A stretch of 25,782 nucleotides of DNA from a virus. The position numbers and the translations under genes were made by a program. The notes under the pieces are model-generated. The model was not told where the DNA came from. It saw nothing but the letters and a program-made list of their open reading frames with translations, and made no database searches. The stretch lies in the IMG/VR virus record IMGVR_UViG_3300045453_000012, positions 1-25,782 of that record; one strand, written 5' to 3'. Below, piece after piece: positions 2,693-17,006 of this stretch; positions within the stretch are counted from its first letter, which is position 1; every line of letters starts with the position of its first letter.

Positions 2693-2753
2693 CTTCCCAG
2701 AGATGGGCTGGAAGGGCCGGGTAACTCCGGCTCTTCTTGCGGGGGGCGCAGAG

Positions 2754-3533
2754 ATGAACGCAGTCCAATATTTGCGCGTCGCGTACAAGGAGGTCGGGCA
2801 GGCTCGCGAATTTCTAAGGGACCTCCCGATCTCTATGAACTTGCTGCTGGAGGATCTCGAAGCGGCTGCCAAGAATGTCTCTATCGCTCGCGAGATGGAC
2901 GCATCCGCTAGTTTTACCGATGAGAGCGGCCTACTCCAGACGTGCGATACCCTAGCCGCGCGCATCATCGACTATGAGGCTCGCGCGTGGGAAATAAGCA
3001 TCATTAGCGACGAGCAGGCCAACTTCCGATCCAACATGGAATCCGGGGTTGCTGCCCCTTTGCAAATCAACAACGTGGTAAGACCTAGCACCATCCGCGA
3101 GAAATTGGAGCGGGTGAGCGTGCTCGCGGAGAAACTGTGCGAATATGAACCGTACAACTACCAACACTATTTCCAACTTGCTCACGCTCACAAACGGCTT
3201 CAACACACAAAAGAGGCGCTGCAAGCCGTCGAGCGTGGCTTGGCTGTCTTCCCCGACGAGGTGGAGCTGCTGAAATTCAAACGCGATCTTGAAGCCGCTC
3301 CGCCGCAGTCTCCGCCGACTGCTTTCCAGATGTGGCTCAAAGACAATCCGGACGCGCTGTTTAACATACTCGCCTTTGCCGCTCCCATTCTAATCTTCGG
3401 CGGCGCTATATGCTGGCTGATTCTCTGGGCGGCAACGTCCGAGTTTATCAATCTCGGGACGCTCGCCACCGCGCTCGGTGGAGGCGCATACTTCAAGTTC
3501 AGGCGTATGTGCAAGGATAGAGGTCTGCCGTGA
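2754..3533 (+). CDS. Membrane-anchored TPR-like protein, partner of the coupling ATPase (259 aa)
   Basis: I do not recognise a named family. The N-terminal half is helical. Around residues 135-180 the pattern YNYQHYFQLAHAHKRLQ and EALQAVERGLAVFPDEVELL looks like one to two TPR units. After a Pro-rich linker, one strong membrane helix lies at about residues 200-228 (ILAFAAPILIFGGAICWLIL), with a second weaker hydrophobic stretch and a basic tail. A single anchor with a large cytosolic domain is inferred. The start could also be ATG 2703; both have weak ribosome sites. The stop codon overlaps the GTG of the next gene (GTGA), so the two are translationally coupled and the products probably interact at the inner membrane. 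Confidence 0.65.
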   Translation: MNAVQYLRVAYKEVGQAREFLRDLPISMNLLLEDLEAAAKNVSIAREMDASASFTDESGLLQTCDTLAARIIDYEARAWEISIISDEQANFRSNMESGVAAPLQINNVVRPSTIREKLERVSVLAEKLCEYEPYNYQHYFQLAHAHKRLQHTKEALQAVERGLAVFPDEVELLKFKRDLEAAPPQSPPTAFQMWLKDNPDALFNILAFAAPILIFGGAICWLILWAATSEFINLGTLATALGGGAYFKFRRMCKDRGLP

Positions 3534-5614
3534 AGCCGAGCGACTTTCTCCCGCCTCGGCCCGCCTTCGATGTTCGCGGACGCTCCAACCGTATACACGA
3601 GCTATGGGAGCGCTATCCGCTTCGCGACGAGGCAGCCTGCCGCGCTTGGCATGAAGACATCTTCAAACAGCTCATACGCAGTCTGAGCAGACGACCGCAT
3701 GAGTCGGTGCTGGTGGGTTCTCTTACGCTCATGGAAGACCTCGCAGCCGACAACGGTGTGTTTCTCACGTCCTACCCGCATCACATCTCGCTCGATTTTA
3801 CGCGTGATCCACAACTAGAATTCTCGACCATCCGCGCCGATGGTTTCAAGGAGTTCGAGCTTGGAAGCTTCAAGCAGATGCTCGCGGAAATCGCCATGCT
3901 GCCCATACCGCCGACCTCGATTGGCACCGTCCCTCTCATAGACGTTCTCCCGGCGCCCAAGCAGCTGATCCAAAAGATAGTATCCGCAATGGTGAACACC
4001 GAGGTTGCCACGCGGCCGGGCTTCCATATCTTCAGGGCTACCCGAGAGAAGATCGTCACGAATTTCAAGACCGCCTCGGGACATCGTGCGGATGCCAACG
4101 TGACTATCGAGAAGATCGTCATGGTGCATGAGTCGCGCCTGTCCGGAACAGCACTGGTCGATGCCTACCTTGGGGGTACGCCGTGGGCTGACTTCCTAAA
4201 GTGTCCTATCCCCTTCGAGATACCGATGGCCCGACGCCTGGAACACACGGTCATCGTCGCTGGTGCGGGATGGGGCAAGACCGAACTCTTAAAGTCGATC
4301 ATTCTCACGGACCTCAAAAAGCCCAATCCTCCCGCCCTGATCGTGCTCGATTCCACGGGCGCAATGATCCGCGACATTCAACAGCTCGCCCTATTCAACG
4401 GGCCACTGAGGGATCGCCTTGTCATCATTGATCCTCAGCACTCGCCTGCGCTCAACATGTTTGACGTGGCGACGCCCCGTTTCCAGACGTACAGCGAAGA
4501 GCAACGCGAAGATGTACAGTCCGAAATCATCTCGCTGTTCAACTACATCTTTGCCACCGAAAGCTACGGGCTGACGGCGCGTATGGACACGGCGTTTTCC
4601 TACGCAGTGAAGCTCATCATGTCGATGCCGAGCGCCACCATTACTGACTTGCGGCAATTGCTCGAAGAACCTGCCGCAAAGGTTGGCGGCTACCAACACA
4701 GCGCTTTCAAGCACTACATCGACCAGCTCGACCAGGACGCTAGGGATTTCTTTGCAACACACTTTTATTCGCAGAGCCTTACCGGCACACGCCTTAATGT
4801 CGCACAGCGTCTTCACAAGGTTGTCGGCGTCCCGGCTTTCCGCCGCATGTTCACGGCAAGTACTAACGTCCTCGACCTCTACGCCGACATGCAGGCGGGC
4901 AAGATCATCCTCGTAAACACCAATCAGCAGCTTCTCAAAGAGGATTCGCACATCCTTTTCGGGCGCTACATCATCGCCCGAGCGCTCGCTGCCGCCTTTG
5001 AGCGTGCGACGCTATTGCCCGAGCAGCGCAATCCCGCCTTCCTCATAGTTGACGAGGCCGCGCCCTACTTCGATCAAACCTTCGAGTCTCTCTTGACGCG
5101 CGTCCGACAGTTTAAGCTCGGGGTCGTCATCGCGTTCCAGCATCTAGAGCAGGCAAACGAAAAGCTCAGATCGGCTATTGCTTCGAGCACCGCCGTGAAG
5201 TTCGGCGCGAATGTCGGCTTTCAAGATCGTCGCTGGCTTGCGCGTGAGATGGAGACAACGCCGGAATTCATCCAAGGACAGCGGCAACGGATCAATGACG
5301 ACGAAAAGTGGACGCAGTTTGCCGCCCATGTTCGTAACGTAACCCCACACGCCCATAGCGTCACCGTCGAGATCGGCTTATTTGACAAAGAGCCGAAGAT
5401 GACCGAGTTAGAGCACCTAGACCTCATCCGGCGGTGCATGGAGCGCGTTGCCTTCGCCCCGTCGCCTAGCCAGCAGGAGGATCACGCTGCCGACGTTATC
5501 CAACCTTCGCCACAGCCCAACTCGCAGTCGTCTCAACCCAAACGGCAACAGCCCCCCGCCGTCATTCAGCTTCCTCACCATAAGCAAGACGACGGCGAAG
5601 GCGGTTGGACATAG
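3530..5614 (+). CDS. VirD4/TraG-type coupling ATPase (694 aa)
   Basis: This large P-loop ATPase resembles the type IV coupling protein/HerA superfamily, whose members push DNA or nucleoprotein across membranes in conjugation. The Walker A motif is GAGWGKTE (residues 245-252), followed by a strand LIVLDSTG. The Walker B motif is FLIVDEAAPYF with D508-E509. A motif typical of coupling proteins follows (RQFKLGVVIAFQHLEQANEK). A C-terminal Pro/Gln-rich tail begins near residue 645. The GTG start at 3530 overlaps the preceding stop and has AGAGGT upstream. No membrane helix is visible in this protein itself; the upstream gene may supply the anchor. A chromosome- or plasmid-translocating HerA/FtsK role is the alternative. 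It is not a phage terminase, because a bona fide terminase lies at 12324. Confidence 0.8.
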   Translation: MKPSDFLPPRPAFDVRGRSNRIHELWERYPLRDEAACRAWHEDIFKQLIRSLSRRPHESVLVGSLTLMEDLAADNGVFLTSYPHHISLDFTRDPQLEFSTIRADGFKEFELGSFKQMLAEIAMLPIPPTSIGTVPLIDVLPAPKQLIQKIVSAMVNTEVATRPGFHIFRATREKIVTNFKTASGHRADANVTIEKIVMVHESRLSGTALVDAYLGGTPWADFLKCPIPFEIPMARRLEHTVIVAGAGWGKTELLKSIILTDLKKPNPPALIVLDSTGAMIRDIQQLALFNGPLRDRLVIIDPQHSPALNMFDVATPRFQTYSEEQREDVQSEIISLFNYIFATESYGLTARMDTAFSYAVKLIMSMPSATITDLRQLLEEPAAKVGGYQHSAFKHYIDQLDQDARDFFATHFYSQSLTGTRLNVAQRLHKVVGVPAFRRMFTASTNVLDLYADMQAGKIILVNTNQQLLKEDSHILFGRYIIARALAAAFERATLLPEQRNPAFLIVDEAAPYFDQTFESLLTRVRQFKLGVVIAFQHLEQANEKLRSAIASSTAVKFGANVGFQDRRWLAREMETTPEFIQGQRQRINDDEKWTQFAAHVRNVTPHAHSVTVEIGLFDKEPKMTELEHLDLIRRCMERVAFAPSPSQQEDHAADVIQPSPQPNSQSSQPKRQQPPAVIQLPHHKQDDGEGGWT

Positions 5615-5628: not shown

Positions 5629-5715
5629 ATGGCTCCTCGTGAGCATATGGCGGTATTGATGCCGCTCGTTATTCCCTCAACCTCTTTGAATGGACGACAG
5701 GCTACGGCTCAATAG
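5629..5715 (+). CDS. Possible 28-aa leader peptide ahead of the replication-relaxation gene
   Basis: An ATG six bases after the TATAAT box opens a 28-codon frame (MAPREHMAVLMPLVIPSTSL, then eight more residues), ending at TAG 5715. It overlaps the start of the next gene in a different frame. There is no Shine-Dalgarno site, so it could be read only as a leaderless message. It may be a leader peptide, or chance. Evidence is limited to position and the promoter. Confidence 0.25.
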   Translation: MAPREHMAVLMPLVIPSTSLNGRQATAQ

Positions 5716-6787
5716 GTTCAGCTACGACCCCATCATCGACAAAGATGGCAAGGCGCTGGTAGCTCGCATCACGCCGCACGACGAGAAGCGCTTCATTGCC
5801 ATTTCACCGTACGACTATCTCACGGCTGACTATTGGGCGGGACTGACAGGCGGCAAGGAAGATGCCGTTACAAACCGGCAAAATCTCCTGAAGCGCACTC
5901 CCAATCGCTGGGTCGATATTGCCGCGCCGCAGCTCGAGGATCAGTTCACCTACAAAAGCAGCTTCCTCGCATATACCAATTCAGCGCGCGCTAAAAAGTG
6001 GCTCGAAGACCACTGCCGGGCTCTCCCATCCCACGGCTGCACCGGCCCCTTCATTCACCGGCTCATGGCCGGCTGGATGCGAGCATCGTTCGACATCGCC
6101 GTAGAGCAGGAGCGTGTGAACGCCACCATCATCCCCTTCCATGAAATCATTAAGAGCGACAACACGCCGGAAGCGACTAGAAACGAGCGCACCGACGACC
6201 GCCACGACCACCGACATCAGATCCCTGTCACGTTCGACGGAAAGACGCGCCGCATCACGCCCGACGCCTTCCCCTTCGCAGTACGCGACAGCCAGGGCAA
6301 GCACTCGCTGATCTTTCTCGAAGCCGATTGCGACAGCGAAAGCATCGACACTCCCAACGGCCTCGATTTGAAGTTGAAGCAGTATCTCGAAGCCTTCCGC
6401 CGCCGCGACGGGGAGCACGACACGCGCCCGATATTCCGGCAGCGCTACGGCTTCCGGCAGGCGTATGTCGTCTTTGGCACACCAGGCCGTATCCACCTTG
6501 AAAACGTGATGGCGCACCTGGTCGAACTCACCAAAGACACTCCGAAGCTTCGCGAGCACTTCCTGTTCACCGAGCACCCGTCTCTAAAGTCGAAGAACCG
6601 ACCGTCAGCTACCGGCCACATGCTCACCAACCCGTACAGACGTGCAGGCCTACCCGATTTCAGTCTTCTAACCGGAGAAGAGGTGCCAAATGGACATCGA
6701 GAAATTAAAGGCCCTGATCGCAAGACGAGAGCAAATCGACGCCGAGATACGGGAGGCAGTAGGGGAGAAGAAGGAGCGCGCATCTAA
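5690..6787 (+). CDS. Replication-relaxation family protein (relaxosome-type, 365 aa)
   Basis: This resembles the Replic_Relax family of plasmid and conjugative-element proteins linked to relaxosome formation and replication. The N-terminal part contains a winged-helix-like segment (FIAISPYDYLTADYWAGLTG, residues about 35-55, then RQNLLKR). A HRLMAGWM stretch follows. The C-terminal half has a nuclease-like pattern: PD at residues 191-192 (ITPDAFPFAV), E211-x-D213 (IFLEADCD) and K228/K230-x-Y (LDLKLKQYLEAF). In-frame stops at 5657 and 5687 force the ATG at 5690, which has no Shine-Dalgarno site; CCTCAACCTC precedes it instead. The last 30 residues are basic and overlap the next gene, so the functional protein may end near residue 333. 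Adjacent to the coupling ATPase, it suggests a mobilisation module. Confidence 0.72.
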   Translation: MDDRLRLNRFSYDPIIDKDGKALVARITPHDEKRFIAISPYDYLTADYWAGLTGGKEDAVTNRQNLLKRTPNRWVDIAAPQLEDQFTYKSSFLAYTNSARAKKWLEDHCRALPSHGCTGPFIHRLMAGWMRASFDIAVEQERVNATIIPFHEIIKSDNTPEATRNERTDDRHDHRHQIPVTFDGKTRRITPDAFPFAVRDSQGKHSLIFLEADCDSESIDTPNGLDLKLKQYLEAFRRRDGEHDTRPIFRQRYGFRQAYVVFGTPGRIHLENVMAHLVELTKDTPKLREHFLFTEHPSLKSKNRPSATGHMLTNPYRRAGLPDFSLLTGEEVPNGHREIKGPDRKTRANRRRDTGGSRGEEGARI

Positions 6788-6854
6788 GAAGTGCTCCATC
6801 TGCCAAAGCGAAGAACACACGGCGCGTACATGCCCGCAGCGGCAGCAGCAGTAG
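6690..6854 (+). CDS. 54-aa coiled-coil protein with a CCHC zinc knuckle
   Basis: The ATG at 6690 has a good ribosome site (GAGAAGAGG, about seven bases upstream) and starts inside the 3' end of the preceding gene in another frame, overlapping it by 98 bases. Residues 1-30 are a charged helix (MDIEKLKALIARREQIDAEI). Residues 35-48 are CSICQSEEHTARTC, a perfect C-x2-C-x4-H-x4-C zinc knuckle, the motif of retroviral nucleocapsids and other single-stranded nucleic-acid binders. A short Gln-rich tail ends the protein just before a strong terminator. It was missed by simple frame calling because of its size. I infer a nucleic-acid-binding partner of the coupling/relaxation pair; the exact role is unknown. 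Confidence 0.7.
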   Translation: MDIEKLKALIARREQIDAEIREAVGEKKERASKKCSICQSEEHTARTCPQRQQQ

Positions 6855-6863
6855 ACAAAGGAA

Positions 6864-6899
6864 AAAGGCGACCAGAGGGAGGGGCTGGTCGCCTTTCTT
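6864..6899. terminator. Strong bidirectional intrinsic terminator
   Basis: AAAGGCGACCAG (6864-6875) pairs perfectly over 12 bp with CTGGTCGCCTTT (6885-6896), with loop AGGGAGGGG. The plus strand continues TTTCTT. The minus strand reads into TTTTT from the A-run at 6862-6866. It separates the coupling operon from the convergent minus-strand gene at 6942-7157. Confidence 0.9.
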
Positions 6900-6941
6900 A
6901 CGCTTTACGCTTACGCCACGCTCGGGGGAACTGGTGAACTG

Positions 6942-7157
6942 CTACTTCTGGTCGGCGATCCAGGCTTCCGCCCGCTCGGCCACCTTGGCTACGTTGAGGA
7001 GGTCGCCGTGGGAGAACGAATCGCCGTCCTTCCACTCGTCGCCGTCCTTGTACGCCCGGGTGATCGAGGTGTTGAAGAAGTTGTCGTTCTTCCACACGGT
7101 CGCCGTAACGAAGCCCACGCGAAACTTGGCAGCGGGCTGGTTGCTGGCCTTGGCCAT
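6942..7157 (-). CDS. Conserved small element protein (71 aa)
   Basis: The minus-strand ATG (7155-7157) has GAGG about four bases upstream, and the gene runs into the bidirectional terminator at 6864-6899. The protein begins MAKASNQPAAKFRVGFVTAT and includes the aromatic WKNDNFFNTSITRAYKDGDE and an acidic C-terminal helix (LLNVAKVAERAEAWIADQ). I recall very similar 70-residue proteins of unknown function on plasmids and prophages of Alphaproteobacteria. The N-terminal half looks like a small beta barrel or sheet. A nucleic-acid-related role is possible but unproven. It is transcribed opposite to its neighbours. Confidence 0.75.
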   Translation of the reverse strand: MAKASNQPAAKFRVGFVTATVWKNDNFFNTSITRAYKDGDEWKDGDSFSHGDLLNVAKVAERAEAWIADQK

Positions 7158-7264
7158 GCTTCCTCTTTCTCCCGCCTCTCAGTCGTGGGCGGGATTCGAT
7201 GCTGTCTTAGACCCAGCACCGTGTCCCGCGCGCGACCTACTCATGAGCAGCACTGAGCACATCA

Positions 7265-7281
7265 TACCATGGCGGATGGTA
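7265..7281. promoter_or_regulatory. Inverted repeat in the divergent intergenic region
   Basis: TACCAT (7265-7270) and ATGGTA (7276-7281) flank the spacer GGCGG. The site lies between the divergent genes at 7157 (minus) and 7321 (plus), where an operator controlling either would be expected. The 163-base gap contains nothing else I can name. Confidence 0.3.
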
Positions 7282-7320
7282 CGATTAGGGGCAGGCTCAT
7301 TCACAGTGGAGAGACCTGCT

Positions 7321-7953
7321 ATGCCATCAATCGACTTCGCAGCCGTGAAGGCTGCCGTGTCCATCGAGGACGCCAAGGACTATCTCGGCTTGAAAATGAA
7401 ACGGGAAGGCGACGCTTTCCGCTCCCCTTGCCCGACGTGTGGCAAGGGCGGCGACCGCGCTCTCGTCATCACACCCGCTAGATCGGCGTTCTACTGCTTC
7501 TCGGTGAAGCGGGGAGGAGATTGCATAGCCCTCGTCGCCCACATTAAGGGGTGTTCGCAACGTGAAGCGGCGACCGAGTTGCAAGAGCGCTTCATCGGCA
7601 ACGCGCCCAAGCGTATCGAGACGCGCCCGACCGAGACCGACGAGCTACAGCCGCTCGATCATCTCTCGGCCGACCATCCGGCGATCGACGCCCTCGGGCT
7701 GTCCGTCGCTGCCTGCGAAGCACTCGGTATCGGCTACGCGGCGAAGGGAATGATGCGAGGACGTGTGGCTTTTCCACTGCGGCTGCCCGACGGGACGCTA
7801 GTGGGCTACGCGGGTCTCGCCACATCGGGAGACCAGGCCCCGCTGATGCTCCTGCCGAGCAACCTGGACGAACGTATCGCCGCTCCTCCGAAGCAGGAGA
7901 TCGCCGACGACAAGGTGGTGGACTTCAAGAAGTTCTATCGCAACGCATCGTGA
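7321..7953 (+). CDS. CHC2-type primase-like protein lacking a TOPRIM domain (210 aa)
   Basis: The N-terminal part is a DnaG-type zinc-binding domain: SIEDAKDYLGLKMKREGDAF, then CPTCGKGGDRAL and FYCFSVKRGGDCIALV. Cysteines are at residues 37, 40, 59 and 68. The usual fourth ligand in CFxC is replaced by Val, and Cys68 is shifted. The middle region (AIDALGLSVAACEALGIGYA, then KGMMRGRVAFPLRLPDGTLV) resembles the start of the primase catalytic core, but the TOPRIM metal site is absent; primases are normally much longer. The start at 7321 has GGAGAG upstream. It may recognise or load at a replication origin, or be a primase accessory. Similar short proteins occur in other alphaproteobacterial phages to my recollection. 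Confidence 0.7.
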   Translation: MPSIDFAAVKAAVSIEDAKDYLGLKMKREGDAFRSPCPTCGKGGDRALVITPARSAFYCFSVKRGGDCIALVAHIKGCSQREAATELQERFIGNAPKRIETRPTETDELQPLDHLSADHPAIDALGLSVAACEALGIGYAAKGMMRGRVAFPLRLPDGTLVGYAGLATSGDQAPLMLLPSNLDERIAAPPKQEIADDKVVDFKKFYRNAS

Positions 7954-7959
7954 AGCCAT

Positions 7960-7984
7960 TTGAATTAGCTCGCTGCTAATTCAA
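7960..7984. repeat. AT-rich perfect hairpin after the primase-like gene
   Basis: TTGAATTAGC (7960-7969) and GCTAATTCAA (7975-7984) form a 10-bp perfect stem with loop TCGCT, seven bases past the stop codon. The downstream sequence is only moderately T-rich (GTTTGATTT after a few bases), so it may be a weak terminator, an RNA stabiliser or a protein-binding site. Confidence 0.5.
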
Positions 7985-8104
7985 GTCCGTTTGATTTGCC
8001 GACGCCCCCGCGTCCCATAAGAGGGTACGGCCGTGAGCGTATGACCTTATCGGCCATCCAGTCGCGACCATTGGGATAGCTCTATGCTGAGTGCCGAGTT
8101 CCTT

Positions 8105-8135
8105 GCCGCCATCCGAGTGGATGGCGGCTCTTTTT
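8105..8135 (+). terminator. Strong intrinsic terminator with no gene directly upstream
   Basis: GCCGCCATCC (8105-8114) pairs perfectly over 10 bp with GGATGGCGGC (8119-8128), tetraloop GAGT, followed by TCTTTTT. No coding frame ends nearby: the last stop is at 7953. It either terminates the primase-like transcript late or ends a small RNA made from 7985-8104. The stretch 7954-8280 has no supported gene; it holds this terminator, the hairpin at 7960 and the repeat pair at 8134-8216. Confidence 0.88.
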
Positions 8136-8216
8136 AAGTCTCACGCTTAGCATTGCTTTCAACACACGAGGGCTCAACGGAGCCATGCCTATATTGCTTT
8201 TAAGTCCCCGACTTAA
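8134..8216. repeat. Pair of related 17-bp palindromes (operator candidates)
   Basis: TTAAGTCCCCGACTTAA (8200-8216) is a perfect palindrome with a 3-base centre. TTAAGTCTCACGCTTAG (8134-8150) is a degenerate copy in the same orientation, 66 bases upstream. The first copy begins in the T tail of the terminator. Two spaced copies before the DUF3768-like gene suggest a repressor binding site. Confidence 0.4.
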
Positions 8217-8280
8217 CGCATGAGCAGCCCCGAGGACATAGCACCCTCGACTCATTTTGCCGCCGCGCTTCAATAGAGGC

Positions 8281-8580
8281 GTGACACGCGAGCAACGCAT
8301 CCTCCTCAACGACACGCTGCGGACGCAGTTTAGGGGCGGCGTCGTCCGGTACGGCTCCCAGGCCGCTCGCCTGCCCGCTCCCATTCGCGGTCGTGCTGCG
8401 ATCCGTCTCTCGAGACCGATGGAGTTTGCGGCCAACAGCGAGCACGACGCGGGCACCTTCATTTTCGCCGGGTATCTCTTCGAGTGGCACATCAGCGAGT
8501 GCCTCGGAGAGCGCACCCTCACACTCGAAGTCGCTGAAGACGTGCTCATCAACGGAGGTACTCATGCCGCCACTCGGTAG
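8281..8580 (+). CDS. DUF3768-like protein (99 aa)
   Basis: The protein has an N-terminal LLNDTLRTQFRGGVV segment and a C-terminal EHDAGTFIFAGYLFEWHI followed by RTLTLEVAEDVL. This order (LND-x-LR, then EHD-x-G-x-F with a WHI/WKI strand, then RTLT at the end) matches DUF3768, a family of unknown function common on plasmids and phages of Rhizobiales, but this copy is divergent. I chose the GTG at 8281, although its AGAGG site is very close; a TTG at 8257 is an alternative. Two very short frames, 8185-8223 and 8220-8276, overlap head to tail just upstream and may couple its translation. Its end overlaps the next gene by 17 bases. Confidence 0.62.
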   Translation: MTREQRILLNDTLRTQFRGGVVRYGSQAARLPAPIRGRAAIRLSRPMEFAANSEHDAGTFIFAGYLFEWHISECLGERTLTLEVAEDVLINGGTHAATR

Positions 8581-8755
8581 CAAGCCGTACACGCTCGTAT
8601 TCCACTGCGATTGCGGGACTATGTGGTTCGAGACTCGATGGGTCGGCGGCATCTTCGCCGGAGACATCGAGTACGCAGTAGCCGCCGAGATAGGCGACTG
8701 CCCCGACTGCGGCGAAGAGGTTTTCGATCCATTCGGAGAGCCGCTGGAGCCGTGA
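8564..8755 (+). CDS. Small zinc-ribbon-like protein (63 aa)
   Basis: The ATG at 8564 has a strong GGAGG site seven bases upstream, inside the end of the previous gene, so the pair is coupled. The protein begins MPPLGSKPYTLVFHCDCGTM and carries a second cysteine pair in CPDCGEE near residue 50, so HCDC and CPDC could bind one zinc. Between them is an aromatic strand-rich segment (WFETRWVGGIFAGD). I do not recognise the family. A small zinc-stabilised accessory protein is the most that can be said. Confidence 0.62.
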   Translation: MPPLGSKPYTLVFHCDCGTMWFETRWVGGIFAGDIEYAVAAEIGDCPDCGEEVFDPFGEPLEP

Positions 8756-8842
8756 CTGTCCCCACGCATCGCAGCGCATCGCCTAGCGCATGAGATGATT
8801 AGTGGCGGGTAATCCTGCCCTTTCAAAATCCGAAGGTGTCGC

Positions 8843-8923
8843 ATGAAACACCGCAATCGGGCGGCGCGTCGTCGCGTCCGCATGATGCTGTGGCTCGCCT
8901 TCCTTCACTGGAGGCGGCCATGA
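8843..8923 (+). CDS. 26-aa basic, tryptophan-containing peptide
   Basis: The ATG at 8843 follows GAAGGTG at good spacing. The peptide starts MKHRNRAARRRVRMMLWLAF and ends LHWRRP: strongly basic, with a central hydrophobic patch. Its TGA overlaps the ATG of the next gene (ATGA), so it could act as a leader peptide coupling translation, or be a real membrane-active or nucleic-acid-binding micropeptide. No homology is known to me. The good ribosome site and the exact overlap are the evidence. Confidence 0.5.
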   Translation: MKHRNRAARRRVRMMLWLAFLHWRRP

Positions 8924-9426
8924 ACCGCTGCGACTGGTGCGGCAATCTCCTCAGCACATGCCGCTGCGTCTACAAAGTCCAAGGCGAGGAGCGCTACTAC
9001 TGCTCACAGTCCTGCTTCCTGCAAGGCGAGGAGCGGCGGCTGCGCTATCGTGCCGCCCTCGCCGGAACTGTCCACGCACACTGGACGGCAACGCTCGTGT
9101 CAATCGCCGTACTTGCTTTCATCCTCTCGGGCGGAACGAGCGCTTTGGCGCACGATCCTCGCACGCACCAGGTGGACGAACTCGCCAACGCTCGCAGCAA
9201 GGCCGGCGGGCTGTGCTGCGATGGCAAGGACTACACCATTCCCTATTCGTGGGAACGCACCGAGCGCGGCTATCGCATCCATTTCGGCGGCCGGTGGGTT
9301 GACATCCCCAAGGACGCCGAGGTGAACAACATGCGGAACCCCGACGGCGAGGCCAAGGCGTGGCTCGCCTTCGACGAACAAGGGGAACCGTACGTACGCT
9401 GCTTCATGCCCGGCATGGAGGGGTGA
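8920..9426 (+). CDS. Membrane protein with cytosolic zinc ribbon and periplasmic domain (168 aa)
   Basis: The ATG at 8920 has GGAGG six bases upstream and overlaps the preceding stop; the longer GTG start at 8836 is not needed. Residues 1-35 hold five to seven cysteines (CDWCGNLLSTCRC, YYCSQSC), a zinc-ribbon-like module. A membrane helix spans about residues 57-78 (TLVSIAVLAFILSGGTSALA). The rest (GLCCDGKDYTI, RGYRIHFGGRWVDIPKDAEV, then AWLAFDEQGEPYVRCFMPG) matches a periplasmic family I recall from Bradyrhizobium and relatives, where a signal peptide normally precedes it. Fusion of the zinc ribbon to that domain is unusual. Function unknown. Confidence 0.68.
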   Translation: MNRCDWCGNLLSTCRCVYKVQGEERYYCSQSCFLQGEERRLRYRAALAGTVHAHWTATLVSIAVLAFILSGGTSALAHDPRTHQVDELANARSKAGGLCCDGKDYTIPYSWERTERGYRIHFGGRWVDIPKDAEVNNMRNPDGEAKAWLAFDEQGEPYVRCFMPGMEG

Positions 9427-9428
9427 CG

Positions 9429-9659
9429 GTGACCAGCATTCGCCTCACCGTCCTCGTGCTCCTCGCAAGTGTCGCCCAGACCTGGAGCAGCGCGCCGCGC
9501 TACGAGCGTCCGCAGAGCTACTGCGCCCTCGCCCTGCCGCCGTCGCAGGTCGTCAGCACGCCGCGTCTTGAAGCCGTGTACTGTTACGGCATCGAGGACG
9601 GCGACTGCCGCACCACCATCGGCTGGGTAGTCGTGTCAAAACCTGTGCGCTGCGACTGA
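9429..9659 (+). CDS. Small secreted Cys-containing protein (76 aa)
   Basis: The GTG at 9429 is chosen because GGAGGGG ends six bases upstream; the GTG at 9423 would be too close. The N-terminus (VTSIRLTVLVLLASVAQTWS) is a typical signal peptide. The mature part has four cysteines spread evenly (SYCAL, VYCYG, GDCRT, VRCD), suggesting two disulfides in the periplasm. It follows the membrane protein by two bases and forms an envelope cassette with it. No family recognised. The gene ends just before a terminator. Confidence 0.6.
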   Translation: MTSIRLTVLVLLASVAQTWSSAPRYERPQSYCALALPPSQVVSTPRLEAVYCYGIEDGDCRTTIGWVVVSKPVRCD

Positions 9660-9671
9660 CTATCCCCACTT

Positions 9672-9698
9672 GGCCGCTCTAGCAGCGGCCTTCTCTTT
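9672..9698 (+). terminator. Intrinsic terminator ending the accessory operon
   Basis: GGCCGCT (9672-9678) and AGCGGCC (9684-9690) form a 7-bp stem with loop CTAGC, followed by TTCTCTTT. The loop is identical, and the stem core and tail nearly identical, to the integrase terminator at 2345-2373. It insulates the tRNA from upstream transcription. Confidence 0.8.
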
Positions 9699-9706
9699 GG
9701 TAAAAT
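9698..9706 (+). promoter_or_regulatory. Extended -10 promoter of the tRNA
   Basis: TGG-TAAAAT (9698-9706) is an extended -10 element (TGn plus five of six consensus bases). Six bases separate it from the first tRNA base, so transcription could start at the mature 5' end. No -35 box is seen at 16-18 bases. Confidence 0.5.
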
Positions 9707-9712
9707 TGAATG

Positions 9713-9784
9713 ACCTCAGTGGAGCAGAAGTAGCTCGTCGCGCTCATAACGCGAAGGTCGCGGGTGCAAATCCCGCCTGAGGAA
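9713..9784 (+). tRNA. Element-encoded initiator-like tRNA, anticodon CAT
   Basis: All four arms pair. Acceptor ACCTCAG/CTGAGGA has six pairs with an A1:A72 mismatch. The D stem GAGC/GCTC has A11:T24. The anticodon stem TCGCG/CGCGA is perfect around the loop CTCATAA with anticodon CAT. The T stem GCGGG/CCCGC encloses TGCAAAT. The 1:72 mismatch and the purine 11:pyrimidine 24 pair are hallmarks of bacterial initiator tRNA, and the sequence GTAGCTCGTCG...GCTCATAAC closely follows bacterial tRNA-fMet. Odd points: the D loop is short (AGAAGTA, one G instead of GG), T55 is G, and the three G:C anticodon-stem pairs are GCG:CGC instead of GGG:CCC. CCA is not encoded. Alternatives are a decoy or a tRNA pseudogene, but perfect stems argue against decay. 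Confidence 0.85.
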
Positions 9785-9785
9785 C

Positions 9786-10103
9786 ATGGCTACGCCGGAA
9801 GGCGAAATCGTCAACGCAATCTGCGAATACCTGGCGCTAAAGAAGCGCTTCTTCTATCGCAACAACAACACCCCGATCTTTGACCCGACGCGCAAGGCGT
9901 TCCGGTCCATGCCCAAGTACACGATGCGGGGCATTCCCGACATCATCTGCGTTAAGGATGGGCGCTACATCGGCATTGAGGTAAAGACTGACAAGGGACG
10001 GCTGTCGGAGCATCAGCATGAGTTTGCCAGGAGCCTCATGTTGGCGGGAGGGGATTACGTCATCGCGCGCAGCATTGAAGATGTGCAGCGAGTTGGACTT
10101 TAG
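9786..10103 (+). CDS. VRR-NUC domain nuclease (105 aa)
   Basis: This is a stand-alone VRR-NUC protein of the PD-(D/E)XK nuclease superfamily, a type common in phages and related to Holliday-junction or structure-specific nucleases. The catalytic pattern is clear: E5, GIPD with D52, IEVK with E65 and K67, and Q77 (KGRLSEHQHEFARSL). Length is normal for the single-domain form. The ATG begins one base after the tRNA, so the gene has almost no leader once the tRNA is released. The only ribosome-like sequence (GAGGA) is inside the tRNA acceptor strand. The gene converges with the minus-strand gene ending seven bases away. A role in recombination or packaging of element DNA is likely. Confidence 0.88.
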   Translation: MATPEGEIVNAICEYLALKKRFFYRNNNTPIFDPTRKAFRSMPKYTMRGIPDIICVKDGRYIGIEVKTDKGRLSEHQHEFARSLMLAGGDYVIARSIEDVQRVGL

Positions 10104-10110
10104 GGGGCGC

Positions 10111-11184
10111 CTACTGGCATCGGACAGTCATGCCTGTCGGAACGCAGCGGTGCATGCACTCCGCATTAAACTTATTGGCGAGGGTCTGATCGAAGCCTAG
10201 CGACGCCGTCGCTCTACTTAGTGCTTCAGCGTGCAGGGCTTCACATGCACTTCCTGCATTGCCTCCAGTTGTTGGTGTGCGTTGCTGCTGCATTTTCGCG
10301 ACAGCATGCTGGTACAAAATGCCGCTTATCATCGCTTCTTGCGCGGCAGTCAGCGGGCCGCATTGCGATACGATCGAATGATACAGAGGAGTGTATCGGT
10401 TAGGATCATCGCCGTCCGACTGCGACCCTTGAAGGTGTCCATACCTAGACCACTGAGCGTCGCATTCCTGCGAAGACAATTTTCGTTGAGTTTGTGGCTG
10501 CCAATCAGCCCCCGCAGTAGCTTGTCCCGGGCATTGCGCCCGCGACCGTATTCCTTGTAATTGCCGCTGAGCCCATTGGCCGCACGTTCTTTGCTCGGCC
10601 GATGGACACTCCAAAGTCATACCTGCGCAAATGCCGCTATCAACGTAAACCGATCGCCTTGCCGAACCGTCGAAGCAGGATGGTCCGGCAGCCTGAGCTG
10701 TTAGGGCGCAAGAGGTGCCGGTTGGAACGCTTTGCCCGGTCGGAGCGCTTTGAGATGCTTGGTTTTGATGCTGAGGTGCCGCTGAATTAGCTGGCTGTCC
10801 CGATGTGCTCGATGTGAGGCACTGGGAGCGGTCCCTAATTCTGGCGTTCTGCCGGTTCGCCAATGCTTGGCACTGATCCAGCGTTATCGATGTGTCGCAC
10901 ACATATGACACCCCGTTACACGTACCACTTGAAACCGTCACCTGTTGCTGGCCCGTTGCGGGAGGCTGAAGCTTGCAATGTTCAATGAGCGGTTTGTAGT
11001 GATTCCGCCATTGTGTCAGGTAGTTGGCACACTCGCGCTGTCGTTCTGGTGTGTCTCCCACACATGGTGCAGGTGCGTACCGTGCTTCGCACGCCAAGTC
11101 CGCGTTGATGGCAACTTGAGCGGATGCTGAAGTCATGCAGGAGACCAAAATTGCGCACACGACGCCGAGCACGCGATTGAGCAT
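10111..11184 (-). CDS. Secreted Cys-rich protein with two internal repeats, likely cargo (357 aa)
   Basis: The minus-strand ATG at 11184 has GGGGAGG at ideal spacing; the ATG at 11205 lacks this. Residues 1-23 are a signal peptide (MLNRVLGVVCAILVSCMTSA...), so the protein is exported. Two repeats of about 40 residues align: residues 82-122 (SSGTCNGVSYVCDTS...IRDRSQC) and 179-218 (DSGICAGMTLECPS...IRSRAQC), each with four cysteines in the same spacing. They are separated by a Gln/Ser/Pro-rich linker. Further cysteine pairs flank them, suggesting many disulfides. No family recognised. Its orientation against the surrounding genes, its own ribosome site and lack of link to virion genes mark it as a lysogenic cargo gene. 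Confidence 0.78.
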   Translation of the reverse strand: MLNRVLGVVCAILVSCMTSASAQVAINADLACEARYAPAPCVGDTPERQRECANYLTQWRNHYKPLIEHCKLQPPATGQQQVTVSSGTCNGVSYVCDTSITLDQCQALANRQNARIRDRSQCLTSSTSGQPANSAAPQHQNQASQSAPTGQSVPTGTSCALTAQAAGPSCFDGSARRSVYVDSGICAGMTLECPSAEQRTCGQWAQRQLQGIRSRAQCPGQATAGADWQPQTQRKLSSQECDAQWSRYGHLQGSQSDGDDPNRYTPLYHSIVSQCGPLTAAQEAMISGILYQHAVAKMQQQRTPTTGGNAGSACEALHAEALSRATASLGFDQTLANKFNAECMHRCVPTGMTVRCQ

Positions 11185-11202
11185 GGCTGCCTCCCCAAGT
11201 GG

Positions 11203-11229
11203 CAATGCACCCTAGCATTGCACGCAATG
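11203..11229. promoter_or_regulatory. Three CAATGC-type half sites between divergent genes
   Basis: CAATGC (11203-11208), its inverse GCATTG (11215-11220) and GCAATG (11224-11229) sit in the 62-base gap between the secreted protein gene (minus) and the gene at 11247 (plus). The first two form an inverted repeat around ACCCTA. They overlap the expected promoter positions on both strands, so a shared regulator is plausible. Confidence 0.35.
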
Positions 11230-11238
11230 TGCTACAAT
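11230..11238 (+). promoter_or_regulatory. Extended -10 promoter, leaderless geometry
   Basis: TGC-TACAAT (11230-11238) is an extended -10 element. The ATG of the next gene lies eight bases after it, so the message should start at or beside the start codon. No -35 box is visible. Confidence 0.5.
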
Positions 11239-11246
11239 ATGGCTAT

Positions 11247-11582
11247 ATGACCAAACGCACCGTGGCAGGGCTGATCTCTGCCGCTTTATTGGCCTCCCCG
11301 GTAGTTGCCCTCGCTGATTTCACCGACGTCGCCCAGCGCGCCCAGGCGCAGGCAAACAGCCTTAGCCGCGAACAGCTCGACAACCTGAATACGCGCGTTG
11401 TGAACGACGCATTCGTCACAGCGCGTATCATTGGATACGACCCGGCCGAGATCAAAGCGCTCCGGGCAGAGGTAGCGCAGTTGCGTCAGGAGAACGCCGA
11501 TCTCCGTGCGGCTTTCAATGGAATCGAAGGCACATTGAAGCTTGTTGTTTCGATGCTGACCGCGCTGCTCGCTAAGCTCTAG
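11247..11582 (+). CDS. Exported coiled-coil protein (111 aa)
   Basis: The ATG at 11247 is chosen because it lies eight bases after a TACAAT box and starts a signal peptide (MTKRTVAGLISAALLASPVV, then ALA before ADF). The mature protein is helical, with a leucine-rich coiled coil at about residues 72-92 (EIKALRAEVAQLRQENADLR) and an amphipathic or hydrophobic end (LKLVVSMLTALLAKL). There is no Shine-Dalgarno site, as expected for a leaderless message. Such proteins could be envelope components or part of a lysis system, but nothing identifies this one. It is followed after two bases by the next gene. Confidence 0.6.
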   Translation: MTKRTVAGLISAALLASPVVALADFTDVAQRAQAQANSLSREQLDNLNTRVVNDAFVTARIIGYDPAEIKALRAEVAQLRQENADLRAAFNGIEGTLKLVVSMLTALLAKL

Positions 11583-11584
11583 CC

Positions 11585-11776
11585 ATGTCGGTGTCAGATG
11601 CCCAGCCGATCGCTAGAGGGAAGATTGCAAAGGGCGAAACGGAGCGCCGTATCATCGCTGCTCTTCCGCCACGGCATCGGCTTGTGCGCATCAACTGGAA
11701 GAAGGGCATCAAGCTGCACATCGTTGATGGCTTCGGCAAGCGCTCAATCATCACGCTTTCGCGTACGGTACAATAA
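11585..11776 (+). CDS. Small basic protein of unknown function (63 aa)
   Basis: The frame runs from an ATG two bases after the preceding stop to just before the terminase genes. The protein is basic and mixed alpha/beta in appearance: ERRIIAALPPRHRLVRINW, then KGIKLHIVDGFGKRSIITLS. The order helix, strand, strand with a His in the third element faintly recalls HicA-like double-stranded-RNA-binding folds, but the key GSH motif is absent, so I do not assign it. It has no clear ribosome site and probably depends on coupling to the upstream gene. Confidence 0.5.
   Translation: MSVSDAQPIARGKIAKGETERRIIAALPPRHRLVRINWKKGIKLHIVDGFGKRSIITLSRTVQ
11769..11774 (+). promoter_or_regulatory. -10 box before the terminase genes, leaderless geometry
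   Basis: TACAAT (11769-11774) is followed by eight bases and the ATG of the small terminase gene (11783), the same spacing as at 11230-11247. No -35 box and no ribosome site are visible. Confidence 0.42.
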
Positions 11777-11782
11777 GCAAAT

Positions 11783-12409
11783 ATGGTGACGAAGCGGGCG
11801 AAGCAAGACAAGGGACAGGAGGCGGAAGCGCTGAAAGCCAAGCGCGAACTGTTCTGCCGCTACTACACCCAGAACCAAGAGCTATTTGGCAATGCCACGC
11901 TCTCGTATGCCGAGGCCTTCGACTACAAGCTCGATGAGCTGTCCCGAGAAGGCGTCTACGAGGAGATCGAAAGCGAGGATGGCACCATCGAACAGGGGAA
12001 GCTGTTAGAACCGAGCGAATACGACAAGGCCTATCACACATGTTCCGTCCTGTCGTCACGCCTGTTGAGAAACGCTGACATCCAGGCTCGCATCACCGCC
12101 CTGTTGAATGAGCTGTTGAAGGACAACATCGTAGACAGTCAGCTTGCCAAGCTCATAACGCAGGACAGCGACAACACGGCCAAGATCGCCGGCATTCGCG
12201 AATACAACAAACTCCGCGGACGCATCATCGACAAGACGCAGAACGTGGACCGTCTGCCTTTCGGTGAGACCGACTTATCAGCCGTGATCGCGGCGCTCCC
12301 GCAGGAGCGTCAAGACTACTACTATGGCGTCATCCGTGAACTTGTCGCAGAAGCCGAGCTTTCAAGAAGCGCTGGCTCGGGTCAAAGCGGCGGCACTGGG
12401 CAAGCCTGA
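11783..12409 (+). CDS. terS: Small terminase subunit (208 aa)
   Basis: The small subunit recognises phage DNA and regulates the large subunit. The sequence shows the expected features: an N-terminal basic helix, RELFCRYYTQNQELFGNATL with SYAEAF (the F-x-x-x-Y-x...N-x-T-x-A-x-x-A-type helix-turn-helix found in TerS), then LLRNADIQARITALLNEL and a long helix ending in REYNKLRGRIIDK, which is typical before the C-terminus. The gene lies directly upstream of the large terminase gene, which it overlaps. The ATG lacks a Shine-Dalgarno site and follows a TACAAT box by eight bases. Ser/Gly-rich C-terminal residues (SRSAGSGQSGGTG) overlap the next start. Confidence 0.82.
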   Translation: MVTKRAKQDKGQEAEALKAKRELFCRYYTQNQELFGNATLSYAEAFDYKLDELSREGVYEEIESEDGTIEQGKLLEPSEYDKAYHTCSVLSSRLLRNADIQARITALLNELLKDNIVDSQLAKLITQDSDNTAKIAGIREYNKLRGRIIDKTQNVDRLPFGETDLSAVIAALPQERQDYYYGVIRELVAEAELSRSAGSGQSGGTGQA

Positions 12410-13958
12410 AGACATCCGCAGGAACTACGGCGCCAAGCCCATTTCCTTGCTCCAATACATCGACCCCTCAATGCGCTTCCCAAAGAAGCTGCGTCTGATC
12501 TTCGCGCTCATATGGCTGCGCCAGGACCAGCAAGGGAGGCCGGCAACCCGCTTCATCATCAAGGGGCCGCGCGGCGGCGGTAAGTCCAAGATCCTCGGCG
12601 CGCTCGGCTTCGTGAAGTGGTTCCTGCAATGCCTCAGCATCGTGGATATGGGCGGCTCCCTGCAGCAGGCGCAGGGCGTCTACAACTACTTCGTTGGGCA
12701 TATCTACGCGCAGCCTTCCATCGTCAACGCGCTCCCAGACGAGCCCACGATGAAGGAGACTAAGAGCGACAAGGGCAACTACTTCAAGGCGGTGGCCGCC
12801 TCCCCGAAAGCGGTGCGTGGCCCGCACCCGGACAACCTCTTCATAGACGAGGCATGCGAGACCAAGGACCAGCTCATCCTCGACGCCATGCCGATGGTGA
12901 ACACGTCGTCCCACTCGCTCGTGGTGATGACCTCCACCTTCCACAAGATCTTTGGCTACTTCCAGGAGACGTGGGACCGGGCAGACGATCTGGGTTGGGT
13001 ACGGCTCTCATGGGATAGCTTTGATGTCTGCAAGCAGTTCGACCCGGCCATCTGGGATGACCCGGAACTCAACCGGCAGATACCCGACCTTGCAAAGCTG
13101 AAGGCGCGCGCCGCCGGCCGCACGGGCGATCCCGAGGGCTGGATACCCGTCGAGAACCTGATCCAGGCTTGGCGCGAGCGAGCGAGCGACGACTACTTCG
13201 ACGTTGAGTACATGGGCTCCCGCCCGTCCGCCGAAGGCATGGTCAATGATCCCGAGGACGTGGAGGCCTGCGTCATCGACGAGCTGGGCGAGTACGCCTA
13301 CATCCCCGGCGCTGACGTCGCCGGCGGCTTGGACTGGGGCTTCTCCGGGCAGACTTCATGGGTGGCGCTCATGGCGCATAAGGACAACGTGAAGGTCCAG
13401 CTCAGCAACCGGCTGTACACGCAGGTGCGCAGCCAGGTCATTATCGAGGACATCGTGCAGGACGTGCTCGCCTACCGCATTTCGGTCATCCATGCCGATG
13501 CGTCCCATGGCTTCGAGAACCAAGCGCTGCGCGACGCCATAAAGAAGGCGATTAACGAGCTGCCCGAGGCAAACCAGTTTAGGTGCGCCGTCGTCGAAGT
13601 GCCGTTTGGTCGGCCGGTGCAGGTGGCGGCCAAAGAGGAGAAGGGGGCGAAGAAGGAGGTATCAAAGAACCTCGGCACCGAGAAGGAAGTCATGCTCGGC
13701 AACTACCGCGCCTATTTCCAGCGCCGCCTCATGCGCATCCTGCGCTCCGACCGCGTCGCCATTTGGCAGCACAAGCGCTACCGCTACCAGAAGAACAGCG
13801 ACAAGCCCGTGAAGGAAGACGACCACGTGCCGGATTCGACCATGCTTTGCCTGCGCCGCTGGATGCTGGGCAAGACAGTCGCGTCACTGTCCGACAAGGA
13901 GGAGCCGACCGCCCGCACGTCCACAGTCACAGGGGGCTTGATGGATATGCAGTTTTAG
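12324..13958 (+). CDS. terL: Large terminase subunit (544 aa)
   Basis: This ATP-driven motor and nuclease packages phage DNA into the prohead. The ATPase domain has Walker A KGPRGGGKSK (K87) and Walker B LFIDEACE (D175-E176). The RNase H-like nuclease has GLDWGF (D337) and a further acidic strand VIHADASHGFENQALRD. A third acidic region (KEDDHVPDSTMLCLRRW) fits the final nuclease motif. Size is normal. The ATG at 12324 lies inside the small subunit gene (86-base overlap) and has no nearby ribosome site, so coupled translation is likely; a GTG at 12336 is an alternative. It starts the morphogenesis block. Confidence 0.92.
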   Translation: MASSVNLSQKPSFQEALARVKAAALGKPEDIRRNYGAKPISLLQYIDPSMRFPKKLRLIFALIWLRQDQQGRPATRFIIKGPRGGGKSKILGALGFVKWFLQCLSIVDMGGSLQQAQGVYNYFVGHIYAQPSIVNALPDEPTMKETKSDKGNYFKAVAASPKAVRGPHPDNLFIDEACETKDQLILDAMPMVNTSSHSLVVMTSTFHKIFGYFQETWDRADDLGWVRLSWDSFDVCKQFDPAIWDDPELNRQIPDLAKLKARAAGRTGDPEGWIPVENLIQAWRERASDDYFDVEYMGSRPSAEGMVNDPEDVEACVIDELGEYAYIPGADVAGGLDWGFSGQTSWVALMAHKDNVKVQLSNRLYTQVRSQVIIEDIVQDVLAYRISVIHADASHGFENQALRDAIKKAINELPEANQFRCAVVEVPFGRPVQVAAKEEKGAKKEVSKNLGTEKEVMLGNYRAYFQRRLMRILRSDRVAIWQHKRYRYQKNSDKPVKEDDHVPDSTMLCLRRWMLGKTVASLSDKEEPTARTSTVTGGLMDMQF

Positions 13959-13962
13959 CGGG

Positions 13963-13971
13963 TGATATCAT
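13963..13971 (+). promoter_or_regulatory. Extended -10-like element before the portal gene
   Basis: TGA-TATCAT (13963-13971) matches an extended -10 element (five of six bases) and is followed by six bases and the portal ATG (13978). It lies just after the large terminase stop codon. No -35 box is seen. Confidence 0.38.
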
Positions 13972-13977
13972 TGAGCA

Positions 13978-16140
13978 ATGGAATTTCTCGGCGTCCACAT
14001 CGGACGCGCAGCAAAAGCCGCTGAGCCGAAGCCGAAGCGCGGCTTGGAGATTGGCGACAGCGGCACCCACATTCTCGACGGTTTCATTAACGAGGAATAC
14101 AACACCGAACTCGCCGGCATCAAAGCGTTCGCCAAGTATGACGAGATGCGCAAGTCGGACTCGACGGTTCGCGCCGCCGAACTCATGGTGCGCCTGCCGA
14201 TCCAGGCAGCGGAGTGGTACGTAAAGCCCGCGAGCGAGGAAGAAGCGGATAAGCGCATTGCGGAGTTTGTGCAGGCCGCGCTCTTCGAGCTGCACGACCT
14301 CTCGTTTGAAGACTTCCTGAGACAGGCACTCCTCTCGCTGCCCTATGGCGTGATGGCGTTCGAGAAGGTCTTCACGACACGCCAAGTAGAGGGGCAGACG
14401 CGCATCGTGTGGGAACGGCTTGCTCCTCGTCTGCCGAGCTCAATTCAGAAGTGGGCTATCGGCGACGCGAAGCTCGGCATCACGCAGCTCCGCTCAGACG
14501 GTAAGGTGGTCGAAATCCCGATGGAGAAGCTAATCGTGTTCGTGCATGAGCGCGAAGGCGACAACTGGAACGGCACCTCGATGTTCCGAGCCGCCTACAA
14601 GCACTGGTTCATGAAGAACGTGTTCTACAAGATCGACGCCATTGCGTTCGAGCGTCAAGGTCTTGGCATTCCCGATGGTCAGTTGCCCGAGGGCTATAGC
14701 GAGCGCGACCGCGCGAAGATGGAGTCGATCCTGAAGAACATGCGGGCGAATTCGCAGGCGTATCTCATCCGCCCCAAGGACTACGAGATTGCCTTCATGG
14801 ACATGAAGGCAAACACGACGCGCGACCCGCAGAACTCCATCAACCACCATGACAGGCAAATCATGAAAGCGGTGCTCGCCCAGTTTCTCGAGCTGGGCGC
14901 TGCCTCACAGGGCGCAAGCGGCAGCCGCGCCGTGTCGGAAGATCACTCGCGACTCTTCCTCCAGGCTGTTGAGGCCGAAGCCCGAGCGTTTGCCACCGCC
15001 GTCAACAAGCAACTCATCAAGCAGCTCGTGGATCTCAATTTCAACAACGTGGAGAAGTACCCGCACCTCGACTTCGAAGGCATTACGAAGGAGGACGTTG
15101 CCGAGCTTTCCGAGACCTACGCAAACCTCATCAAGGCCGGAGGCATGACGCCGCAGGATGCTGACGAGGCGGCTTTCCGCGAGAAGATGGGTCTGCCCGA
15201 GCTGGACGAGAGCGGTGTCCGGGAGAAGCCTGCCAATGACAATGAACTGCCCGACGATGAGAGACAGGAAGCCAGGGAGCCGAGGCTAAAAAAAAACTTC
15301 TCGGAGCCGCCTAAGCCGTTCCGCAAGCTGACGTTTGCCGAGCAGAAGGTCAACTTTCAAGCACTGAACGATAAGATGGACGAGCTGGAGGCCCAGTTCG
15401 ACCAGGTCACGAAGAAGCTCCTGCACGAAGCGCGCGACACCTACATGGCCGCGCTCACGCAAGCTGCCCATGCGGGCGATACCAAGGCCATCAAGGAGGC
15501 GACGCTCAAAGTCCAGTCCGACTATGCTCGGATCATTAAGGGGGCGATCAAGTCGGCGTTTGAATACGGGAAGAACAATGCAGCCAAGGAGATCGGCGTG
15601 GATGCACCGGCCAACCCGGCCGAGATGCTCCGGCAGATCGACATCCAATCAGATGCCATCGCGGACGCTCAGATTGCTCGGATCACGACGGATAGCAAGA
15701 ACGCCTATGTGCAAACCCTCAACAAGGGACTCTCGCTCACTGCCGCTCTTGGCGCGGCGGATGCTGCGGCAGCCGCTGCCATCGACCAGCTCACGAGCGA
15801 CGCAAGCGCCATCCTAGTCGCGGGCTACATCAACCATGGCCGCGATACTGTGTTCGAGAAGAGTGCAAAGGACATCTATGCGCTGCAGCGGTCAGAAATT
15901 CTCGACGCGCGCACCTGCCCCTACTGCCTGTCGGTAGATGCTCGTGTGATCGAAAGGGACGACCCATTCGGCCGCAACACCATCTTCCACTCAAACTGCC
16001 GAGGCATCTGGGTCGCCATTCTCCAGGACGAGGCGGAGAAGCCGAAGATCGGCGGGATTCCGCAGTCTGTCCGCGATAGATTCGGAGACACAGTGAACGA
16101 TCTCATCCAGCCGAAGAAGCCGACGCCCAAGAAGCGTTAG
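13978..16140 (+). CDS. Portal protein fused to a MuF-type minor head protein (720 aa)
   Basis: Residues 1-430 are a DUF935 portal (Mu gp29 family): RAAELMVRLPIQAAEWYVKP, SLPYGVMAFEKVF, NWNGTSMFRAAYKHWFMKNV and IRPKDYEIAFMDMKANTT. Residues about 445-720 end in a MuF/SPP1 gp7 domain with the zinc-type signature RTCPYC (C647, C650) and FHSNCRG (H671, C674). The portal is the head vertex through which DNA enters; MuF proteins are low-copy head proteins. In Mu they are separate genes, so this is a fusion. A nine-A run lies exactly at the junction. The ATG has no ribosome site and follows an extended -10 element. The stop overlaps that of the convergent gene. Confidence 0.92.
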   Translation: MEFLGVHIGRAAKAAEPKPKRGLEIGDSGTHILDGFINEEYNTELAGIKAFAKYDEMRKSDSTVRAAELMVRLPIQAAEWYVKPASEEEADKRIAEFVQAALFELHDLSFEDFLRQALLSLPYGVMAFEKVFTTRQVEGQTRIVWERLAPRLPSSIQKWAIGDAKLGITQLRSDGKVVEIPMEKLIVFVHEREGDNWNGTSMFRAAYKHWFMKNVFYKIDAIAFERQGLGIPDGQLPEGYSERDRAKMESILKNMRANSQAYLIRPKDYEIAFMDMKANTTRDPQNSINHHDRQIMKAVLAQFLELGAASQGASGSRAVSEDHSRLFLQAVEAEARAFATAVNKQLIKQLVDLNFNNVEKYPHLDFEGITKEDVAELSETYANLIKAGGMTPQDADEAAFREKMGLPELDESGVREKPANDNELPDDERQEAREPRLKKNFSEPPKPFRKLTFAEQKVNFQALNDKMDELEAQFDQVTKKLLHEARDTYMAALTQAAHAGDTKAIKEATLKVQSDYARIIKGAIKSAFEYGKNNAAKEIGVDAPANPAEMLRQIDIQSDAIADAQIARITTDSKNAYVQTLNKGLSLTAALGAADAAAAAAIDQLTSDASAILVAGYINHGRDTVFEKSAKDIYALQRSEILDARTCPYCLSVDARVIERDDPFGRNTIFHSNCRGIWVAILQDEAEKPKIGGIPQSVRDRFGDTVNDLIQPKKPTPKKR
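15288..15296 (+). promoter_or_regulatory. A9 slippage run at the portal/MuF junction
   Basis: In frame the run reads CTA AAA AAA AAC TTC. A -1 slip leads after five more sense codons to TAA (15312-15314); a +1 slip leads to TGA (15329-15331). Either would yield a portal of about 445-450 residues without the MuF domain. Runs of eight or nine A are known to promote transcriptional slippage, and A AAA AAC is a recognised ribosomal slippery heptamer. Confidence 0.5.
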
Positions 16141-16934: not shown

Positions 16935-17006
16935 TGCTCCCCCGGCGAAGTGCTGCTTATCCCCACGCGCACCGGGCACGGCGACATATAGCACAATCAT
17001 GGGCTG

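Follow-up and report, generated by a model that had tools for sequence, protein, structure and literature searches.

The three G:C pairs in the anticodon stem of the initiator tRNA and the G18-Psi55 contact at its elbow are textbook constants. To our knowledge, an initiator with its middle stem pair flipped to C30:G40 was known before only as a laboratory mutant. This mutant, M1, is an E. coli tRNA-fMet in which G30:C40 was changed to C30:G40 while G29:C41 and G31:C39 were kept, resulting in an about 20-fold drop of initiation in vivo and in the loss of discrimination against CUG in vitro (PMC11497404). At the elbow, Psi55 has been described as universally conserved (PMC4810234).

Phage-encoded initiator-type tRNAs are already known as annotations in named phages, including Sinorhizobium phage phiLM21, Pseudomonas phage PaMx74, Erythrobacter phage R6L and Caulobacter phage CcrSC, all with anticodon CAU. 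Terminase genes often adjoin these tRNAs (phiLM21, L461; PaMx74, L466; R6L, L465; DoCa5, L468), and in the first three phages the tRNA lies close to the terminase genes as it does in the DNA described here. A broad study of phage tRNAs published in 2026 says nothing about initiators (PMC13015707). Phage tRNAs have also been proposed to evade anticodon nucleases, and the phages examined in that work generally avoid encoding tRNA-fMet (PMC10264068). The tRNA-fMet is itself a toxin target, being cut by an alphaproteobacterial VapC (PMC8522696). Here, we describe a prophage-borne initiator-type tRNA(CAU) that, unlike the named-phage initiators read, carries the C30:G40 flip, together with an exchanged elbow contact. 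No report of natural C30:G40 initiators or of an A18/G55 elbow was found in the literature searched, whose coverage was partial; such silence is weak evidence of novelty.

An initiator-type tRNA inside a prophage

The window, i.e. the whole stretch of 25,782 bases analyzed here, is an IMG/VR virus record that covers the left-hand portion of a prophage whose integration site is tRNA-Thr (Table 1). The host is an alphaproteobacterium; window bases 1-900 share 79% DNA identity with an alphaproteobacterial genome stretch in which the same permease gene lies beside tRNA-Thr(CGT). The initiator-type tRNA is located inside the prophage, 5′ of the terminase genes, and protease and capsid genes follow further on (Pfam/PHROG). 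As integration occurred at tRNA-Thr, the initiator-type tRNA is ruled out as the attachment site. A search of host-genus genomes with the region spanning the tRNA and the VRR-NUC gene gave no match, hence there is no near copy to compare. Closer to the integrase, window positions 2399-5614 hold an excisionase/HTH-like gene with a weak match to PADLOC mad1, a TPR-like gene and a HerA/TraD-like ATPase that matches mad8 (5e-13); this gene set is perhaps a MADS-like defense remnant. Beside the tRNA, PADLOC gave no defense genes except weak nuclease-fold matches of the VRR-NUC gene.

Table 1. Features of the window discussed in the text.
Feature	Position	Strand	Basis or remark
Host tRNA-Thr(CGT), integration site	921-996	+	tRNA call; same permease gene adjoins the tRNA in host relatives L449 and L450
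Tyrosine integrase, after tRNA-Thr	1064-2356	+	Pfam/PHROG
Intrinsic-terminator-like hairpin, tail TTCTCTTT	9672-9690	+	would isolate the tRNA promoter from upstream genes
Extended -10 promoter TGG-TAAAAT (predicted)	9698-9706	+	predicted +1 = 9713 = tRNA nucleotide 1
Initiator-type tRNA(CAU)	9713-9784	+	ARAGORN, Rfam, fold; best match is a host-relative initiator
Acceptor stem	9713-9719/9777-9783	+	
D arm	9722-9736	+	
A18 and G55, exchanged elbow contact replacing G18-Psi55	9729 and 9766	+	11/11 coupling
Anticodon arm	9738-9754	+	
C30 and G40, flipped middle stem pair (vs G30:C40)	9741 and 9751	+	sequence, recurrence, M1 literature
T arm	9760-9776	+	
A73	9784	+	
VRR-NUC domain nuclease gene	9786-10103	+	Pfam PF08774, 1.6e-5; PHROG 93, 2.6e-17
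Terminase small subunit	11783-12409	+	PHROG; phage context downstream of the tRNA
Terminase large subunit	12324-13958	+	PHROG; downstream of the tRNA
Mu-like portal	13978-16140	+	PHROG; phage context spans 11783-16140

The original prediction, made from the sequence, described a foldable tRNA with anticodon CAT, an A1:A72 mismatch and an A11:T24 pair, and these features stand. ARAGORN calls a tRNA-Met(cat) at 9713-9785, Rfam RF00005 scores 58.3 bits over 9713-9784 (cut-off 29, E 2e-10), and the full cloverleaf is the minimum-energy fold of this segment (z -2.3 vs shuffles). From 5′ to 3′ it reads ACCTCAG, TG, GAGC AGAAGTA GCTC, G, TCGCG CTCATAA CGCGA, AGGTC, GCGGG TGCAAAT CCCGC, CTGAGGA and A. 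Both initiator marks, a 1:72 position without a Watson-Crick pair (A1:A72) and a purine11:pyrimidine24 pair (A11:T24), can be read directly, and so can two oddities that had been pointed out, an anticodon stem of GCG:CGC rather than GGG:CCC and a G at position 55 (T54-G55-C56). The claim of a D loop with one G needs amending: G18 is gone and is now A18, but G15 and G19 are kept. CCA is indeed absent, A73 being followed by C and then ATG, but this is less odd than was thought, as CCA is encoded in only 82 of 200 distinct viral tRNAs (two flank classes, among the matches listed).

Compared with all 44 tRNAs of one host relative, the phage tRNA is closest to the initiator (55 matching bases), followed by another CAU tRNA (49), with the third CAU tRNA at 46. 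This difference in similarity, together with the initiator marks, rules out an elongator tRNA-Met or a tRNA-Ile2. The best overall match, the host-lineage tRNA-fMet (L529, L453), shares the CAU anticodon, the open 1:72 position, A11:U24 and the D stem GAGC/GCTC. Its anticodon stem is AGG:CCU (AGG:CCT in the gene) with G30:C40, whereas the phage tRNA has C30:G40, the A18/G55 elbow, no CCA and another acceptor sequence. The acceptor stem is in fact wholly unlike the CGCGGGG of the host relative, with pairing kept at 6/6 positions and 1:72 open. From the formylation determinants listed in PMC9976931 (A73, G2:C71, C3:G70 and G4:C69), A73 and C3:G70 are kept while C2:G71 and U4:A69 depart, and these two differences would count against its use as a substitute initiator. 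We regard 9713-9784 with high confidence as a putative working initiator-type tRNA; since its GCG:CGC stem lacks G30:C40, it would best be termed an initiator-type variant, not a canonical tRNA-fMet. A related phage (L019) carries another tRNA-Met(CAT) in a different place (2561-2634, - strand); its D arm is unusual, and its 1:72 mismatch is T1:T72.

Recurrence of the stem and elbow changes

The flipped stem is found in other initiators, most of them on viral contigs. When we scanned for initiator-type D stems and loops combined with a 30:40 pair lacking both G30 and C40, IMG/VR yielded 45 stretches but 84,980 genomes only 15, some of the 15 not being tRNAs. After parsing, the GCG:CGC stem was present in 36 distinct initiator-type tRNAs with a mean pairwise identity of 78% (minimum 64%), and A11:U24 was kept in every one of them. 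The 84,980 genomes contain about ten flipped tRNAs, of which five or more also occur in viral contigs; identical genome/IMG/VR pairs are L028/L024, L030/L048, L038/L057, L027/L083 and L039/L053. Several flipped tRNAs lie near portal, terminase, tape-measure or capsid genes. Most genomes with a flipped tRNA also carry a G30:C40 initiator, and in two incomplete MAGs the flipped tRNA was the sole match. About 140 alphaproteobacterial initiators (counted by eye among the matches listed) keep G30:C40, the exception being the flipped tRNA of the genome around which this comparison was centered.

Beyond the flip, phage initiators appear to be variable in the anticodon stem in general. In the sample of 200 distinct viral tRNAs, drawn among the matches listed from two flank classes that were chosen to avoid the usual host stem, GGG:CCC is kept in 26, and pair 30:40 is G:C in 174, C:G in 16 and something else in 10. 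Our Fisher tests ignore shared ancestry and use cellular counts made by eye.

The elbow had been predicted to show a matched loss of the G18-Psi55 contact. The change is matched, but it is a replacement rather than a loss, with A18 and G55 recurring as a unit: among 309 distinct initiator-type tRNAs, all 11 with G55 carry A18, across several stem classes and at identities down to 67%. Two other tRNAs were read as A18 without G55, at least one of which may be mis-parsed. Position 19:56 can be exchanged as well, as one tRNA has A19:U56 (L058) and one has C19:G56 (L161) in place of G19:C56. Going by these couplings, the elbow contact is exchanged, not lost, and the coupled 18:55 change argues for a maintained L shape. 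Because the same changes occur in the initiators of many unrelated phages, stem and elbow both look selected. Decay of the stem in close relatives had been named as one outcome that would undo the prediction, but decay does not account for oddities that recur, coupled and paired, in many distinct phage-borne initiators; with a host-relative initiator as the nearest tRNA, these findings support the view of an altered initiator supplied by the element itself.

Predicted promoter and neighboring genes

A promoter of its own seems to serve the tRNA. Its extended -10 site is one of only four of such quality on the + strand of the window, and a further one precedes the portal start codon by exactly 12 nt; a generic sigma-70 scan gave no two-hexamer promoter. 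The VRR-NUC ATG starts 2 nt after A73, a start site backed by homologs, and a protein search of genome contigs gave no VRR-NUC relatives. In the related phages L021 and L015, a terminator-like hairpin is also present 5′ of the VRR-NUC gene, and the same kind of promoter directly abuts the VRR-NUC start codon, as in leaderless mRNA. In the phage family, a -10 box lies 12 nt before the start codon in 9/12 portal and 9/12 protease homologs (in the window at 13966-13978 and in the region before 17019), which suggests that the portal and protease messages are leaderless. We infer that an insertion placed the tRNA right where transcription of a leaderless VRR-NUC gene begins, and a cut after A73 would, by further inference, restore a near-leaderless VRR-NUC message. 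Among phage initiators in general, a -10 box at exactly this 12-nt distance is only weakly enriched, and we therefore restrict the predicted start at nucleotide 1 to the present phage.

Shine-Dalgarno sequences were seen in 6/124 start regions of the phage family (window 5690-25664 and relatives L003-L023; the start regions are those of window genes and their homologs). Late structural genes have purine-poor, A/C/T-rich leaders with CT or TT right before the ATG. An AACCTC motif before several start codons, resembling the 5′ strand of the tRNA, was dropped as a candidate, as relatives do not generally share it.

Possible reasons for the altered build

Most likely, the prophage tRNA would act as a working substitute initiator. 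Our joint reading, a functional, self-promoted initiator-type tRNA that substitutes in phage growth and is built to escape toxins, is given a probability of about 0.45. The tRNA would be transcribed from its own extended -10 promoter, starting at nucleotide 1, and its 3′ end would be freed just before the VRR-NUC start codon. After addition of CCA, charging by MetRS and formylation to some degree, it would stand in for the host initiator while the phage grows. Toxins such as VapC, whose cut in tRNA-fMet falls within the anticodon arm, would attack host initiators, and the phage copy, with its different stem and elbow, would keep initiation going once the host copy is destroyed.

Escape from tRNA-fMet-cutting toxins may be the best-motivated reason for the altered build, because evasion of anticodon nucleases by phage tRNAs has already been proposed (PMC10264068), an alphaproteobacterial VapC cuts tRNA-fMet (PMC8522696), genes related to this VapC occur frequently across the host family, and one flipped tRNA directly follows an RNA-ligase gene. 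In this single case, the ligase gene (PF09414; L027 4128-5445, the same element as L083) ends 12 nt before a C30:G40 tRNA. The VapC model NF010285, which from its family name we take to be the plasmid-type, tRNA-fMet-specific VapC, matches 36/75 host-family genomes, two above the curated cut-off and most below it; among the nearest host relatives, no match was strong. Against escape, VapC cuts within the anticodon loop, and this loop is unaltered (CTCATAA). Like the phage tRNAs proposed to evade nucleases (PMC10264068), the window tRNA is a phage copy of a toxin-attacked tRNA, but it differs from them in that the changes lie in stem and elbow and not in the loop. It could also be a poor initiator, as the same flip lowers initiation in E. 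coli so strongly. Unlike M1, it is natural and phage-borne, and has further changes in acceptor and elbow.

Relaxed constraint offers another explanation that we consider possible but not probable. Here, the phage would gain a little from a spare initiator, and the stem would drift while the host copy does the essential work. The wide variation of 29:41 and 31:39 in phage-borne initiators and the scarcity of GGG:CCC in the two flank classes fit such drift, although drift alone should produce more mismatches than are seen, the changes being almost always paired, and it does not sit well with the invariant A11:U24 of the flipped tRNAs or with compensated elbow changes. Somewhat more doubtful is a working initiator for another kind of initiation, in which the flip makes the ribosome hold the tRNA less tightly, allowing phage messages that are weak, leaderless or Shine-Dalgarno-less to start more readily. 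The lost CUG discrimination of M1 in vitro (PMC11497404), the near absence of Shine-Dalgarno sequences and the 12-nt spacing of the portal and protease -10 boxes would agree with this. However, the conserved window genes start nearly always with ATG and at times with GTG or TTG, with no sign of CTG among their assigned starts; most close relatives that share the SD-less layout have no such tRNA, an SD-like GGGAG adjoins the next gene in a phage with a flipped tRNA (L024), and M1 lowers initiation overall.

That the tRNA is mainly a cis element, serving as the 5′ leader of the VRR-NUC gene and leaving a near-leaderless C-AUG mRNA when cut after A73, is improbable, even though it fits exactly between promoter and start codon, the promoter abuts the VRR-NUC gene in L021 and L015, and without CCA A73 adjoins C-AUG. 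An ORF start lies within 12 nt of nucleotide 73 in just 11/317 tRNAs, host relatives match RNase Z only weakly, and the stem and elbow changes would be left unexplained. Finally, the loss of the near-universal G18 and Psi55 and the missing CCA could be taken as signs of a decayed or spurious tRNA-like sequence, a view to which we give hardly any credence: the Rfam score, the full pairing and the coupled changes, present in ten other tRNAs, rule out chance or a pseudogene, and the putative promoter of its own points the same way.

The natural, compensated departures described here are concentrated in phage-borne copies, thereby providing ready-made variants to probe what had counted as constants of the initiator. 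They open the question of whether these constants serve P-site selection, proofreading or the recognition of the initiator by toxins. Tentatively, such tRNAs may form a distinct phage class in which the ribosome-read stem and the elbow were re-coded together under selection, making phage initiation partly separate from that of the host, either toxin-resistant or with an altered choice of start sites. The initiator would also join those tRNAs that may help phages to withstand tRNA-cutting defenses.
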